DNA from: Rhodohalobacter barkolensis
GTDB lineage: Bacteria > Bacteroidota > Rhodothermia > Balneolales > Balneolaceae
Length of the DNA stretch: 64,000 nt
Direction of reading: 5' to 3'
Assembly (NCBI RefSeq): GCF_002834295.1
Contig: NZ_PISP01000001.1
Location: 620,001 to 684,000, forward strand
Positions 57,904 to 64,000 of the stretch are shown here, one piece after another. Position 1 is the stretch's first letter. Every line of letters begins with the position of its first letter. The notes under the pieces were generated by a model. The model saw only the letters and a list, made by a program, of their open reading frames with translations, ran no database searches and was not told the origin of the DNA. The translations under genes were made by a program, and so were the position numbers.

Positions 57904-59029
57904 ATGGAGAACATCCAGTTAGATAAATTGAATTCCCTATTTGAGCGGCTCGATACGCTCAGGGGGTACCTTTGACTACGATAAACGAAAAGTTCGGGTA
58001 ATAGAGCTGCAAGAACAAACCCAGGATCCTGAATTCTGGAATGATCCCGATAAAGCTCAGCAGATTATGCAGGAGCTGGACAGGGAAAAAAGTCTTGTAG
58101 AAAAGTGGGACGAACTGGATGAACTCCGTGAAAGTATTCGTGTTTTTCTCCAATTTCTAGATGAGGGCGAAGATGTTCAGGATGATCTTCGGGCCGAGGT
58201 AGAAACGTTCCGTAAAAAACTTGAAGATCTGGAGCTTCAAAATATGCTCAGCGGTGAGGATGATCATCGTAATGCAATTATGACATTCAATCCGGGAGCC
58301 GGGGGTACAGAAAGCCAGGACTGGGCTCAGATGCTATTTAGAATGTACACCCGCTGGGCAGAAAGCAAAGGCTATAAAGTTTCTGTTGTTGAATACCAGG
58401 ATGGTGATGTAGCCGGATTAAAAAGTGCTACGATTGAAGTTTCCGGACCCAATGCTTACGGATATCTTAAATCCGAAAGCGGCACACACCGATTGGTACG
58501 TATTTCTCCTTTCGACAGTAATTCCCGCCGGCATACATCATTCAGTTCAGTTTTTGTGTCGCCTATCATAGATGATACGATTGAAGTAAATCTGAACGAC
58601 TCTGACATTGAACTGCAACGCTTTCACGCAAGTGGTGCGGGTGGTCAGAATGTGAATAAAGTGGAAACCGGAGTTCGATTGGTTTGGACCGGAAAACTCA
58701 GTGACGGGTCAGAAGAGAGGGTTGTTGCGGAGTGCCAGCAGGAACGTTCACAGCTTCAAAACCGTGAAAAAGCATTGGTTATGCTAAAATCTAAGGTGTA
58801 TGAGCTCGAAAAACAGATTAAGGAGAAGGAGAAGCAAAAACTGGAAGACTCCAAAAGCAGTAATGAATGGGGTTCTCAAATCCGTTCATATGTATTTCAC
58901 CCATATAACATGGTAAAAGATCACCGTACGAATTATGAAACCGGTGACGTGCAAGGGGTGATGGATGGAGATCTGGATGAGTTTATGAAAGCATATCTGT
59001 TGGCCACCAACATTGGGGAAGCGGCATGA
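57904..59029 (+). CDS. prfB: Peptide chain release factor 2, with programmed +1 frameshift
   Basis: Reading from the ATG at 57904, 23 codons run to an in-frame TGA at 57973-57975; the context AGGGGG-TAC-CTT-TGA-C is the classic prfB slip site (internal Shine-Dalgarno, CTT slippery codon). A +1 shift at CTT resumes at GAC (57974) and continues to 59029, giving a full RF2 (~374 residues). The stop-reading tripeptide SPF ('RISPFDSNSRR') and the catalytic GGQ ('SGAGGQNVNK') are present. Low RF2 delays termination at UGA and favours the shift, so RF2 controls its own synthesis. It overlaps coaE by 4 nt. Confidence 0.97.
57961..57976 (+). promoter_or_regulatory. prfB programmed frameshift site
   Basis: AGGGGGTACCTTTGAC: internal Shine-Dalgarno-like AGGGGG, 3-nt spacer, CTT slippery codon, TGA stop and the termination-weakening C after it. 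It is nearly the same as the E. coli site. Confidence 0.95.
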
Positions 59030-59634
59030 TTGTAGCCGGGGTAACCGGAGGCATAGGTTCAGGAAAGAGTACACTATGCAAGGTGTGGGAATCACTTGGC
59101 GCAAAGGTGATATATGCTGATGATCTGGCCAAACAGTTGATGGTTGAGGATGAAGAGGTAGTTGCCAAACTAAAAGAGATTTTTGGCAAGGATACTTATA
59201 AAAATGATGGTTCTCTCAATAAAACTCATCTGATTAACGAAGCTTTTCAAAAAGGAAGGGTAGAGGAGTTGAACAGTGTGGTTCATCCGGCTGTAGCACG
59301 GAAATTTCAAGAGATCCGTATTCAAACTGAGAAAACTGAAACAAAAGTCTTGGTTAAAGAGGCGGCTTTGTTACTCAATGAAGGGCGACCTAAAGATTTG
59401 GACGTTGTGATTTTGGTACTGTCACCGAAGGAAGAACAGATTAATCGGGTTAAGAAAAGAGACAGCGTTGAAAAAAAAGATGTTTTGGAGAGAATGAATA
59501 AGCAACCTGACTTTGAAAAATTAAAAAGTTATGCCGATTATATCATCACAAATGATGGTACGCTTAAAGAGTTTAAATTAAAATCAAAAGAGCTTTATTT
59601 AAAAGTATTGGAAGACTATCGGGATAATGTGTAA
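59026..59634 (+). CDS. coaE: Dephospho-CoA kinase
   Basis: 202 residues. P-loop 'VTGGIGSGKSTLCKVWESLG', followed by 'VIYADDLAKQLM' and 'VVHPAVARKFQE', all typical of CoaE, and 'EAALLLNEG' near 120. It phosphorylates the 3'-OH of dephospho-CoA, the last step of CoA synthesis. The start overlaps the prfB stop (ATGA). Confidence 0.95.
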   Translation: MIVAGVTGGIGSGKSTLCKVWESLGAKVIYADDLAKQLMVEDEEVVAKLKEIFGKDTYKNDGSLNKTHLINEAFQKGRVEELNSVVHPAVARKFQEIRIQTEKTETKVLVKEAALLLNEGRPKDLDVVILVLSPKEEQINRVKKRDSVEKKDVLERMNKQPDFEKLKSYADYIITNDGTLKEFKLKSKELYLKVLEDYRDNV

Positions 59635-59689
59635 TTCGCACAACTTCTAAGATACTTTTAGGGAAAGTGCAAAATTGAGTGTTGTTGCT

Positions 59690-60727
59690 ATGGAATCTAC
59701 GTCTACCGCTAAATCCAGGAAACTGGTTACACTGGATGAGTATATCATTCAGGCACAAAATAAATTCCCCGGGGCCACAGGAGAACTTTCTCAGCTTTTG
59801 AGGGATATTGGCCTTGCAGCTAAAATCATATCCCGGGAAGTAAACAAAGCCGGGATTACTAATTTACTCGGAGTGGACGGGTCTACAAATGTGCACGGTG
59901 AATCTGTAAAACGATTAGACTTATTTGCTGATCAGCAGCTTATTTCCGCGCTTGACAGGTCTATGATTACCTGTATGGTAATATCGGAAGAAAATGACGG
60001 GATCGTTCGATTAAATAGTGAAGGCGGCAAATATATTGTCTATATGGATCCTTTAGACGGATCCTCAAATATCGACGTAAATGTTTCGATTGGGAGTATT
60101 TTTTCAATCTACATGCGTCAGCCCCGATTTGATAAAAAACTCGTAGAAGATGACGCATTACAACCCGGAATACGACAGGTAGCAGCCGGGTACGTTTTGT
60201 ACGGATCGAGCACTATAATGGTTTATACCACTGGCTTGGGAGTAAGCTCTTTTACGCTCGATCCAAGTATTGGTGAATTTATTCTCTCCGAAGATGATTT
60301 TAAAATTCCGGAATGCGGTAATATATACAGTATTAATGAGGGGAGTTATAATTCCTGGGCCGACGGGTTAAAAAAGTATATCAAGTATTGTCAGGTTGAG
60401 GATGAAGAAACGAATCGGCCTTATACAGCTCGATATATCGGATCTATGGTGGCTGACTTGCACAGAACTCTGATCAAAGGCGGAATTTTTATCTATCCGG
60501 CAAGCACTCGTTATCCAAACGGAAAGTTAAGGTTGATGTATGAGTGTAATCCGCTGAGTTTTATTATTGAACAGGCAGGGGGTATGGCAATTGATGGAAA
60601 AAAACGAATAATGGAGAAGCAACCGACATCCATACATCAGAGAATTCCGATCTACATCGGTTCTCCCGACAATGTGAAAAAAGTGAAAGAACTTCTCGAT
60701 CAACACGAAAATAAAGAGTCAGTTTAG
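59690..60727 (+). CDS. fbp: Fructose-1,6-bisphosphatase class I
   Basis: 345 residues from the ATG at 59690 (a TTG 15 nt earlier is possible). Metal-site motifs 'VISEENDG', 'YMDPLDGSSNIDVNVSIG' and the sugar-binding 'TARYIGSMVADLHRTLIKGG', 'YPNGKLRLMYECNPLSFIIEQAGG' (shown in parts) are class I FBPase. It makes fructose 6-phosphate in gluconeogenesis. It lies 55 nt after coaE. Confidence 0.95.
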   Translation: MESTSTAKSRKLVTLDEYIIQAQNKFPGATGELSQLLRDIGLAAKIISREVNKAGITNLLGVDGSTNVHGESVKRLDLFADQQLISALDRSMITCMVISEENDGIVRLNSEGGKYIVYMDPLDGSSNIDVNVSIGSIFSIYMRQPRFDKKLVEDDALQPGIRQVAAGYVLYGSSTIMVYTTGLGVSSFTLDPSIGEFILSEDDFKIPECGNIYSINEGSYNSWADGLKKYIKYCQVEDEETNRPYTARYIGSMVADLHRTLIKGGIFIYPASTRYPNGKLRLMYECNPLSFIIEQAGGMAIDGKKRIMEKQPTSIHQRIPIYIGSPDNVKKVKELLDQHENKESV

Positions 60728-60748
60728 ATACCTTAATTCCATGCTATC

Positions 60749-61258
60749 TTATTGAGGACTATCAAGAGAATATTCAATCATCATTCCTTCACGGATATCG
60801 TGGTTCAGTGTGAATCCGGCATTGACTTCTACGACATACTTAGCCGGTGTTTCTGAGACGATATTTTCGTGGGAATATGGTGATGTATTACGATGTATTC
60901 GAACTATTTCCATTTCTGAATTTACGAAGAGAATATCCAGAGAGAGAGGGGTATTTGCCATCCAGAAACTTCGCGGCGTTTCATCATCAAAAATAAAAAG
61001 CATTCCTGCATCTTCAGGCATGTTTTGAACATTCATTAATCCTTCGCTTCTGCTATTATCATCATCTGCAATGGCAGACCGGACAGTTACAATTTCCTGT
61101 TCGGATGAATCCAGAAAAGTAACCGTAGCAGTATAATCCAACTGTCGAGATTCCGATTGTTCTGATTGTTCATTTCCTTTGCCATTACAAGCTGCAACTA
61201 AAAGGGACAGTATCAGTAGGCTGTATCGAAGCATATATATTTTATTTTTGATGTTCAT
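60749..61258 (-). CDS. DUF192 lipoprotein
   Basis: 169 residues from the ATG at 61258; a second ATG at 61234 gives a more compact signal. Lipobox 'LSLLVAAC'. The DUF192 core is clear: 'RSEGLMNVQNMPEDAGMLFI', 'FWMANTPLSLDILFVNSE', 'YVVEVNAGFTLNHDIREGM'. Function unknown; DUF192 proteins are small beta domains in the periplasm or outside the cell. It converges on fbp and diverges from rimP. Confidence 0.88.
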   Translation of the reverse strand: MNIKNKIYMLRYSLLILSLLVAACNGKGNEQSEQSESRQLDYTATVTFLDSSEQEIVTVRSAIADDDNSRSEGLMNVQNMPEDAGMLFIFDDETPRSFWMANTPLSLDILFVNSEMEIVRIHRNTSPYSHENIVSETPAKYVVEVNAGFTLNHDIREGMMIEYSLDSPQ

Positions 61259-61345
61259 AAAGCTCTGAATAGTACATCTTAAGAGGTGAATTCTCAAGTT
61301 TTATTAGTTGGTTTTTTCAACAATTAAGGTTAATTTTCAGATCTG

Positions 61346-61380
61346 AAAAGTGAGCGCCAGAAGGCCCTCACTTTTTTTTG
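61346..61380 (+). terminator. Terminator-like hairpin in the rimP-nusA-infB leader
   Basis: Stem AAAAGTGAG (61346-61354) with CTCACTTTT (61367-61375), plus an inner GCC/GGC pair around an AGAA loop, followed by T8. It lies 21 nt before the rimP ATG and after the DUF192 promoter side. Because no plus-strand gene ends just before it, it may be a regulated attenuator of the operon rather than the end of an upstream gene; the fbp terminator alternative is far (620 nt). Confidence 0.8.
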
Positions 61381-61400
61381 TACTCAGATTTAAGCTTTTT

Positions 61401-61859
61401 ATGAACAGCACGACTATAAATACCATAAAGGAATTGGCGAAACCCATTGTGGAGCAGGAAGATATGTTTCTTGTTGATGTTGAGGTTAAGAATGCTAAAG
61501 TACAAGAAGTGTGGGTTTTGGCAGATTCTGAAAAGGGTGGTGTTGATTTGGACGCTTGTGCACGAGTTAGCCGGGAATTGAGTTTTATACTTGAAGAGAA
61601 GGATATTTTCAATAAAGCTTACAGGCTGAATGTTTCATCACCCGGATTGAGCAGGCCACTGAGTGACCAGCGCCAGTATCCAAAAAATGAAGGCAGGACC
61701 ATAAAAGTTAAATATAAATCAGATGAAGAGTATTTAACCGTAGAAGGCGTACTTCAAAGTGTAAACGATTCACAAATTGAAGTTAAACCAGAGGACGATA
61801 AACTGGTTGTTATTCCGTTTGATAATATTGTAGAAACTAAAATAGTACCGAAAATTTAG
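61401..61859 (+). CDS. rimP: Ribosome maturation factor RimP
   Basis: 152 residues from the ATG at 61401; an upstream start would run through the hairpin. Motifs 'LAKPIVEQEDMFLVDVEVK', 'GGVDLDACARVSRELSFIL', 'LNVSSPGLSRPLSDQRQYPK' (in parts) and a C-terminal SH3-like domain. It helps 30S subunit assembly. First gene of rimP-nusA-infB, the conserved order. Confidence 0.95.
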   Translation: MNSTTINTIKELAKPIVEQEDMFLVDVEVKNAKVQEVWVLADSEKGGVDLDACARVSRELSFILEEKDIFNKAYRLNVSSPGLSRPLSDQRQYPKNEGRTIKVKYKSDEEYLTVEGVLQSVNDSQIEVKPEDDKLVVIPFDNIVETKIVPKI

Positions 61860-61887
61860 CCGGCAACGAACTTAAAACTATTTCCAG

Positions 61888-63147
61888 ATGCAAAACGAAA
61901 TTTCAAAGCAAATAATCCAGTCGTTTGCAGAAATTGCAAAAGATAAAGGCATAGATAAAGATCTGCTTCTTTCTATACTTGAAGATGTATTTCGTACGAT
62001 GATTCGTAAAAAATATGAATCAGATGAATCGTTTGAAGTAATTTTGAATGCAGACCGGGGAGAAATTCAGATTCTCCATATTCGTGAAGTAGTTCCGGCA
62101 GATGAACTGACTGACCCTGTGACTGAAATTACCCTGGAAGAGGCTCAAAAGCATGATCCGGATCTCGAACTATATGACGAGTATGCTCAGGAAATATCTA
62201 TTACTGATTTTGGACGCCGTGCAGTTTCAATGGCGCGTCAGCAGTTGGCACAGCGGATTCGTGAAATTGAGAAAGATAATGTATTTGAAGAGTATTCCGA
62301 TCGTATTGGAGAAATTGTATTGGGTGATGTATATCAGGTGCGACACAATAAAGATATTCTGGTAAATCACAACGGAGTAGAGTTACTCCTTCCTAAAAAC
62401 GAACAGATTTACAAAGATCGATACCGTAAAGGTGATACGATCAGAGCGGTTGTTTCTGAAGTAAAACGTATCGGTGGAAATCCAACGGTAATTATTTCAA
62501 GAACATCTCCTCTGTTCCTGGAAAGGTTATTTGAAAATGAGATTCCGGAAGTATTTGATGGAATTATTGAGTTGAAAAGAATTGCACGCGAACCGGGTGA
62601 TCGTTCCAAAGTGGCTGTGGTATCTTATGATGAGCGTGTTGATCCGGTAGGAGCCTGTGTGGGTATGAAAGGGATTCGTATTCATGCAATAGTACGAGAG
62701 CTTCAAAACGAAAATATTGACGTCATCAATTATAGTGATGACAAGATTGAATTTATCAAACGTGCGCTTCAGCCTGCAAGAGTTGCAAAAGTGGAAATCA
62801 GTGAAGATGGGAAGCAAGCAAATGTACTTGTGCCAGCTGACGAAGTTTCCAAAGCGATTGGTAAAGGAGGTGTGAATATCCGCCTTGCCTCAAAACTTGT
62901 TGGATGCGAAATCGACGTATACAGGGAAGTAGAAGAGGAAGATGATATCGATCTGGCTGAATTTGAAGTCGATTTTGGAAAAGAGACGATTGATATGCTT
63001 TTCGAAATTGGATGCGACAGCGCACGTGCAGTACTAGAGCTGGATGAAGATGAGATAGTTCGCCGAACCGAAGGTAAAATTACCAAAGAGGAAGCAGAAA
63101 AAATCATCGATATCATTGCTTATGAATTTGAGGACGAGGAAGATTGA
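61888..63147 (+). CDS. nusA: Transcription termination/antitermination factor NusA
   Basis: 419 residues. N-terminal polymerase-binding domain (~1-125), S1 domain (~130-200; 'GEIVLGDVYQVRHNKDILVN'), KH1/KH2 (~225-345; 'DPVGACVGMKGIRIHAIVRE' and 'AIGKGGVNIRLASKLVG'), then a short acidic C-terminal region. NusA binds RNA polymerase and nascent RNA, affecting pausing, termination and antitermination. It is 28 nt after rimP. Confidence 0.96.
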   Translation: MQNEISKQIIQSFAEIAKDKGIDKDLLLSILEDVFRTMIRKKYESDESFEVILNADRGEIQILHIREVVPADELTDPVTEITLEEAQKHDPDLELYDEYAQEISITDFGRRAVSMARQQLAQRIREIEKDNVFEEYSDRIGEIVLGDVYQVRHNKDILVNHNGVELLLPKNEQIYKDRYRKGDTIRAVVSEVKRIGGNPTVIISRTSPLFLERLFENEIPEVFDGIIELKRIAREPGDRSKVAVVSYDERVDPVGACVGMKGIRIHAIVRELQNENIDVINYSDDKIEFIKRALQPARVAKVEISEDGKQANVLVPADEVSKAIGKGGVNIRLASKLVGCEIDVYREVEEEDDIDLAEFEVDFGKETIDMLFEIGCDSARAVLELDEDEIVRRTEGKITKEEAEKIIDIIAYEFEDEED

Positions 63148-63213
63148 TCGTACCTTTCGACTCTAGTTTCTTTTTTAGTTTATAATTTGACAAACCGACG
63201 CAAACAGACATAT

Positions 63214-64000
63214 ATGACGGACCAAAAACCGAAAAAGCTCTTTAAAGTAGCATCAGAATTTAACGTTGCCACTCAATCTATCGTGGATACATTGAGTGAC
63301 AACGGTTTTGATGTCGCTAATCGGCCAAATTCAAAAATCACACCCGAAATGTACGAGGTGCTTGATGGAGTATACGGCGATGACAAAGCAAAGAGCCGAG
63401 AACATGAAAGAGCCAGAGAAGAATACGAAAGTCGTCGGAATCAAATTTTATCGAGCCGAAACGAAAGCGTTTCAATTGACAACTTTTTAGAGCCGATTGA
63501 TGAAAAAGAGGAGGCTAAAGAAGAGAAGAAGGAAGAAAAACCTAAAGAAGAGAAAAAGGCTGAATCCTCAAAAGAGCCTACTCTTGAGCCTCAGGAAGAA
63601 CCTGAAGTAAAAGAAGAGAAAGAAGAAGAACCTGAGGCGGCTTCTGAGGAAGTATCCGATGAGGAAAAAGAAAAAGAAATTGAAGTGAAATCTTCAGATC
63701 AGGAAACTGAAGAATCAGATGATGAAGAGGAAAAGGTTAAACCTGAGGAAGTGAAGAAGGAGGCACCGAAAAAGGAAGAACCTGAGCCTGAATCTGATGA
63801 AGAAGATGAGGAAGATGAAGAAGAGGATTACGATGAAGATGATGAGGAGGAGGAAGACGAGGACGACACAGAAGTAGAAGATATTGAAGATGAAGAAGAC
63901 GATGATGACTCTGACTCTGAGGAGGAAGAAGATTCCGATGAAGATGATGAAGAAGAGATTATTCGGGGACGCTCAAACAAAAAGCTTACAGGTACAAAAG
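63214..64000 (+). CDS. infB: Translation initiation factor IF-2, N-terminal part (runs off the window)
   Basis: The first 262 codons. It starts with an IF-2 N-terminal helix domain ('KKLFKVASEFNVATQSIVDT', 'NGFDVANRPNSKITPEMYEV'), then from about residue 90 a highly charged linker of Glu/Lys/Asp with Pro ('KPKEEKKAE', long acidic runs) reaching the right edge. The GTPase domain is outside the window. IF-2 places initiator tRNA on the 30S subunit. It lies 66 nt after nusA. Such long acidic linkers are variable among bacteria. Confidence 0.93.
   Translation, partial: MTDQKPKKLFKVASEFNVATQSIVDTLSDNGFDVANRPNSKITPEMYEVLDGVYGDDKAKSREHERAREEYESRRNQILSSRNESVSIDNFLEPIDEKEEAKEEKKEEKPKEEKKAESSKEPTLEPQEEPEVKEEKEEEPEAASEEVSDEEKEKEIEVKSSDQETEESDDEEEKVKPEEVKKEAPKKEEPEPESDEEDEEDEEEDYDEDDEEEEDEDDTEVEDIEDEEDDDDSDSEEEEDSDEDDEEEIIRGRSNKKLTGTK

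Follow-up and report, generated by a model that had tools for sequence, protein, structure and literature searches.

A terminator hairpin kept in front of rimP-nusA-infB across Bacteroidota as a candidate NusA-controlled attenuator

The rimP operon and its leader hairpin

What does a strong terminator-like hairpin do when it stands directly in front of an operon, with no gene of the same strand ending before it? The question is raised by a hairpin upstream of rimP-nusA-infB in the window, by which we mean the whole 64,000-nucleotide stretch of DNA analysed here. The original prediction was that NusA might limit its own synthesis at this place through a simple attenuator.

The first gene of the operon, rimP (61401..61859, plus strand), encodes a RimP of 152 aa (Pfam RimP_N, 67.3 bits; DUF150_C, 29.1 bits). 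It is followed on the same strand by nusA (61888..63147), encoding a NusA of 419 aa with N-terminal and KH domains (NusA_N, 113.6 bits; KH_5, 95.6 bits; KH_1 was also matched), and by infB (63214..64000), with an infB frame of 984 residues past the window edge. The latter gene was assigned to IF2 from its N-terminal sequence as read and from operon order; a Pfam search of the part inside the window gave no match. Its N-terminal linker contains a long Glu/Asp-rich stretch (63490-63960). One Chitinophagaceae-labelled record at 83% identity and five Balneolaceae-labelled records at 51-60% were the rimP matches in named genomes, and from match labels and general taxonomy we take the source genome to belong to the order Balneolales in the wider class Rhodothermia.

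Upstream of rimP lies a gene for a DUF192 protein on the minus strand (60749..61243; Pfam DUF192, 100.4 bits), and the previous plus-strand ORF stops at 60727, which agrees with the earlier remark that no plus-strand gene ends nearby. In Balneolales the upstream side could be read at 29 loci, and in 28 of them the closest frame was divergent from rimP, so that the hairpin cannot be the terminator of an upstream gene. The neighbourhood, 60749-61345 in the window, is a stable one.

Base-by-base reading, folding and alignment of relatives placed the terminator hairpin at 61346..61375 on the plus strand. Its 5′ side consists of AAAA (61346-61349), GTGAG (61350-61354), C (61355) and GCC (61356-61358); the loop AGAA (61359-61362) is followed by GGC (61363-61365), C (61366), CTCAC (61367-61371) and a T8 tract (61372..61379), then GTAC. 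The structure is made up of outer A-T pairs, a lower stem GTGAG/CTCAC, a 1x1 mismatch (C61355 x C61366), an upper stem GCC/GGC and the tetraloop. From the end of the T8 tract to the rimP ATG at 61401 there are 21 nt, and the strong hairpin originally described was borne out in all these respects. The hairpin alone folds at -15.2 kcal/mol, and the region 61339-61401 at -21.2 kcal/mol (z -4.28), with none of 200 dinucleotide shuffles equally stable. A simple terminator scan of the window did not list this hairpin, probably because of the mismatch in its stem. An outer pairing, TCTGA/TCAGA, flanks the T-tract in the window; it was rejected as a general feature, since the leader alignment, read by eye, did not look that way.

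A promoter pattern immediately upstream of the hairpin

Just 5′ of the hairpin we found promoter-like boxes, TTG-N20-TAATTTT, at 61308-61337. The putative -33 element of the operon promoter is TTG (61308..61310, plus strand) and the -7 element is TAATTTTC (61331..61338, plus strand), recognised from the leader alignment and the fixed spacing. Across 30 aligned leaders the TTG and the TA of the TAnnTTT box were invariant. The exact spacing TTG-N20-TAnnTT[TA] was present in 47 of 50 Balneolales leaders (mean in shuffles, 0.55) and in 63 of 107 leaders phylum-wide (0.88 in shuffles). The boxes match the Bacteroidota promoter consensus, -33 TTTG and -7 TAnnTTTG (PMC7366714; here and below, papers are cited from excerpts), and so appear to be the known promoter pattern of the phylum.

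Taking the box as the -7 element, transcription is predicted to start at about 61341-61344, 2-5 nt 5′ of the hairpin. Termination would yield an RNA of about 38 nt, and the whole leader would measure about 59 nt. The original prediction had called for a start between 61260 and 61345; the predicted start falls inside this range, though at its very end. It had also named a promoter between hairpin and gene as the case against an attenuator, for which we found no support: the conserved promoter lies upstream, and 61380-61400, read by eye, does not contain a TAnnTTT box. Several other families have the hairpin deeper in the leader, with up to 37 nt between box and hairpin.

Conservation within Balneolales

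The Balneolales set comprised 50 loci with 46 distinct sequences. Hairpin and a tract of T7-9 were found in 50/50, and the stem was of the GTGAG/CTCRC type in 46/50. The lower stem is almost fixed, with two pairs showing no variation, and the changes seen among the 46 sequences preserve pairing (U-A to U-G, 7; A-U to G-C, 1; G-C to A-U, 1). Compensatory pair changes occurred in a few rows of the alignment. A shuffle control was passed for paired cells and covariation score (0/500), but only weakly for pairs in which both bases had changed (28/500). Covariation inside the order is therefore modest, and the signal is mostly sequence conservation.

Stem position 6 was unpaired in all 40 Balneolaceae (C opposite T in 15, A in 14 and C in 10; T opposite T in 1). 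Closing this mismatch would add about 6 kcal/mol to the stem, from a mean of -13.5 as found to -19.3 if paired, and its conservation may reflect an imperfect terminator that is kept imperfect. GNRA loops made up 29 of the 32 Balneolaceae tetraloops, with all four bases seen at loop position 2; the remaining three include the AGAA of the window, and loops longer than 4 nt occurred in 8/40.

In the phylum sample, model R1 matched at rimP in 23/23 Balneolales genomes, including 7/7 that had not been used in building it, and in 0/125 other genomes. Three extra matches in genus g13 (two in G075, one in G049) were rejected as the same element, as on reading they resemble ordinary terminators elsewhere.

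Further copies were not found in the own genome: a pattern search gave one place, and the next R1 match had an E value of 0.49. The model also weakly matched the opposite strand of the same rimP hairpin. As a single copy by both searches, the element was rejected as the mark of a regulon. The layout itself, defined as a strong hairpin with a T-tract near a start and no gene of that strand ending in the 150 nt before it, is rare: an own-genome scan of 464 kb with 365 ORFs of at least 100 aa gave only five such places. One of these lies 186 bases from a contig end, and at another the predicted start of the ORF falls inside the hairpin. In the own genome a second attenuator candidate was noted on the minus strand at L136:9575 (C1, near 909575), where a strong hairpin with a T-tract (-18.8 kcal/mol) stands near an ORF start and the closest same-strand gene end is 280 nt upstream.

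Conservation across the phylum

Hairpin conservation upstream of rimP in relatives, proposed earlier as a check, gave a positive result: phylum-wide, a hairpin with a T-tract was present in 110/110 rimP leaders by a relaxed finder and in 107/110 by a strict one; outside Balneolales the figures were 60/60 and 57/60. On inspection by eye, the three leaders missed by the strict finder (L076, L086 and L101) do form hairpins, but their T-tracts are shorter or interrupted; the relaxed finder accepts them. On dinucleotide shuffles of the leaders the strict finder gave 68/550. Leaders of recA, the sole control gene, gave 5/40 relaxed and 3/40 strict (at -6 kcal/mol). At -9 kcal/mol the counts were 35/40 for rimP versus 2/40 for recA (Fisher p 1e-14, a guide only, as related genomes are non-independent).

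Stem sequences vary by family (GTGGG/CCCAC, GAGGGGAC/GTCCCCTC, ATGGGC/GCCCAT, TAGCCCG/CGGGCTA and others), while hairpin and T-tract are kept. Most Bacteroidota loci outside Balneolales have a GGG/CCC stem or the inverted CCC/GGG. The element is thus general in the phylum and no local development, which refines the original prediction.

Among 20 rimP leaders from Rhodothermia that are not Balneolales, 14 (L061-L068, L070, L072, L074, L075, L077 and L078) had two tandem terminator hairpins. Often GGGGGG/CCGCCC comes before GCGCCCG/CGGGCG, which inverts the order of the gammaproteobacterial tandem described in PMC2965389. The G-rich and C-rich arms of these hairpins could cross-pair to form alternatives.

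A family without rimP

Which gene of the operon the hairpin serves can be asked in family f41, where RimP_N was above the cut-off in 0/8 genomes (98-100% complete; best E 0.05; loci L189, L190, L191 and L197-L201). One member, G219, had already lacked a RimP_N match in the phylum sample. The absence from near-complete genomes is unusual for a 30S maturation factor.

With nusA as the first gene, a GGGC/GCCC hairpin with a T-tract stood 5′ of it in 8/8 loci (-6.6 to -14.1 kcal/mol), as called with the relaxed finder, whose rate on recA is 5/40. A TAnnTTTG box preceded the hairpin in 7/8, and an IF2-like frame followed nusA in the 3/3 loci read for it. Elsewhere, nusA directly followed rimP in the rows read with both genes, an uncounted set among the matches listed; among the loci examined, only this family appears to decouple the two. 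The relaxed finder gave no such hairpin in the 230 nt upstream of nusA, within rimP, in the window.

Because the hairpin is kept 5′ of nusA in a family that lacks rimP, the leader terminator is tied to the start of the operon ahead of nusA(-infB), whether or not rimP is present. The family is thus a natural experiment that splits two candidate targets and points to nusA(-infB). Judged from these sequences, it agrees with feedback by NusA and speaks against RimP as the effector; it is the strongest evidence on the effector, although it does not separate NusA from IF2.

Proposed mechanism and alternative explanations

We propose that the hairpin is probably a promoter-proximal attenuator of rimP-nusA-infB whose outcome is set by NusA in negative feedback. 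Polymerase would initiate a few nucleotides short of the hairpin and, around +38, would either terminate and release a short RNA or read through into rimP, nusA and infB. NusA bound to polymerase would promote folding of the imperfect hairpin and thereby termination, and the result would be negative feedback on NusA, along with RimP and IF2. The start site, termination in the cell and NusA as the effector are what we infer in this scheme.

No sensor domain or short ORF was found before the terminator: Rfam gave no match, and the predicted start is about 4 nt from the hairpin. So short a distance has no space for an antiterminator, a riboswitch or a leader peptide, which leaves the decision to polymerase and the factors bound to it. 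The best candidate is NusA: its gene lies downstream, it favours hairpin folding where a terminator is imperfect, and it has a precedent in B. subtilis. The feedback attenuator of the original prediction has gained support from the upstream promoter, the phylum-wide conservation and the rimP-less family pointing to nusA, and NusA dependence itself is proposed here by precedent. Two features sit less easily with NusA. With its full T8, the stem is not obviously a weak, NusA-dependent terminator, which counts against this reading, and the Balneolales lower stem is more invariant than a terminator requires; another RNA- or DNA-binding factor could be involved.

The strongest alternative, which we consider unlikely, is the same attenuator under the control not of NusA but of IF2, of some further RNA-binding protein reading the GUGAG/GNRA hairpin, of NusG, or of polymerase kinetics. 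The near-invariant stem, conserved mismatch and GNRA loop do resemble a recognition site, infB still stands behind nusA in the rimP-less loci read, and the predicted leader, lacking room for an antiterminator, leaves the decision to a protein or to polymerase, whose speed or nucleotide supply could likewise set the outcome. However, NusA feedback is documented in Bacillus and has support in E. coli, and lineages differ in stem sequence but retain the hairpin and the operon, which fits a factor acting on hairpins generally. A DNA operator palindrome would explain the invariant Balneolales lower stem, but was rejected, as it explains neither the GNRA rule, nor the T-tract, nor the change of stems between families with pairing kept.

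It is improbable that the hairpin is an unregulated early terminator or insulator, imposing a constant cut in operon output or blocking stray transcription. A hairpin with T8 could act constitutively, and no antiterminator is visible; yet it lies 3′ of the operon's own promoter-like boxes, so the operon's own transcripts would be stopped too. A weaker promoter would be a simpler route to a constant loss, and neither the mismatch nor the loop would have a reason to be conserved. Still less probable is a role in shielding the mRNA or in adjusting translation: the hairpin's position at the extreme 5′ end of the mRNA would suit such a role, but the T7-9 right after the stem in every Balneolales locus is unneeded for protection, and the hairpin is further into the leader in the families with longer box-to-hairpin distances. 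We give next to no credence to a terminator for minus-strand (antisense) RNA, or a bidirectional one, since the AAAA before the stem, T4 on the minus strand in the window, occurs in only 8/50 Balneolales loci against the plus-strand T7-9 in all; and equally little to a longer RimP, whose frame is open from GTG 61350 in the window; in 44/50 loci, however, this GTG and rimP are in different frames, and in two more they share a frame interrupted by a stop.

Returning to NusA, a bolder form of the proposal can be offered tentatively, at somewhat less than even chances. The hairpin may be a phylum-wide minimal "NusA meter": a terminator set about as early as would be workable, without an antiterminator, whose imperfect stem is tuned to NusA occupancy of polymerase just after promoter escape. 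Such an element would belong to nusA and stay where rimP is gone, and the name rimP-leader would be misplaced. If this is true, the Balneolaceae mismatch under the GNRA cap would be part of the tuning. With an element of about 40 nt at a fixed promoter spacing, the idea that a termination factor's own activity serves as the feedback sensor becomes simply testable.

Comparison with known leader elements

The rimP-leader of Naville and Gautheret (2010, PMC2965389) is an intrinsic-terminator hairpin in the rimP-nusA-infB leader, 4-130 nt from the gene; its general form has no visible antiterminator, and NusA was proposed as the best candidate effector. The present hairpin with its T-stretch, 21 nt before the ATG, is inside that range, and its predicted pre-hairpin leader of about 4 nt shares the lack of an antiterminator with the general form. 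Unlike that family, the Balneolales form does not have the stem motif GGGc(...)gCCC, which is absent from the window hairpin (stem GTGAGCGCC/GGCCCTCAC), and has a conserved mismatch and a GNRA loop. PMC2965389 names Firmicutes and Gammaproteobacteria, and the term Bacteroid is absent from its main text in the excerpted form; RF01770 is listed as "Gammaprotebacteria rimP leader" (PMC5955585). The Rfam rimP-leader model, of a family described as gammaproteobacterial, gave no match in 58000-64000 at E up to 10, nor in eight leaders of other families at E up to 1. The best local Rfam matches were rejected as below threshold (FopS, 23.3 bits versus a gathering cut-off of 56; L20 leader, 19.9 versus 58.7), and miRNA-named matches for one leader (L104) were taken as artefacts.

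B. subtilis NusA autoregulates through NusA-stimulated termination in its own leader (Mondal 2016, cited in PMC12288461), and the NusA effect is greatest at imperfect hairpins or U-tracts (PMC12288461). In both systems the leader of the nusA operon contains a terminator, whose place 3′ of the promoter is known here by sequence alone. The Bacillus leader is 180 nt long (PMC2965389) versus about 59 nt predicted here, and NusA stimulation, documented there, is a prediction here. An attenuator of the Bacillus type should go with nusA and not with rimP only, as is seen in the rimP-less family (8/8). In S. agalactiae, RNA-seq of the gbs0413-gbs0418 leader revealed short and long forms from one start, with termination 31 nt after it, and NusA feedback was proposed (PMC4448216); the operon is the same, but termination was measured there and is predicted here, in another phylum and with another promoter type. 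In E. coli, terminators t1 and t2 precede rimP, and control by NusA is supported (PMC6511841).

Within the phylum, Flavobacterium psychrophilum has a transcript-supported structured 5′ element before rimP without an Rfam hit (PMC9723704). It shares with the present element the phylum and a structured rimP leader, but the excerpted text gives no mechanism and reports conservation for other Flavobacteriaceae genera only. Among the papers listed from the open-licence literature, none reported the element in Balneolota or linked it to nusA in genomes that lack rimP. For Bacillus, it is established that NusA feeds back through a terminator in the leader, and there is support for this in E. coli and Streptococcus; by analogy the present element is best regarded as a variant of the rimP-leader type. 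It would extend NusA-type attenuation to a phylum for which the literature found had held only an unexplained structured rimP leader.
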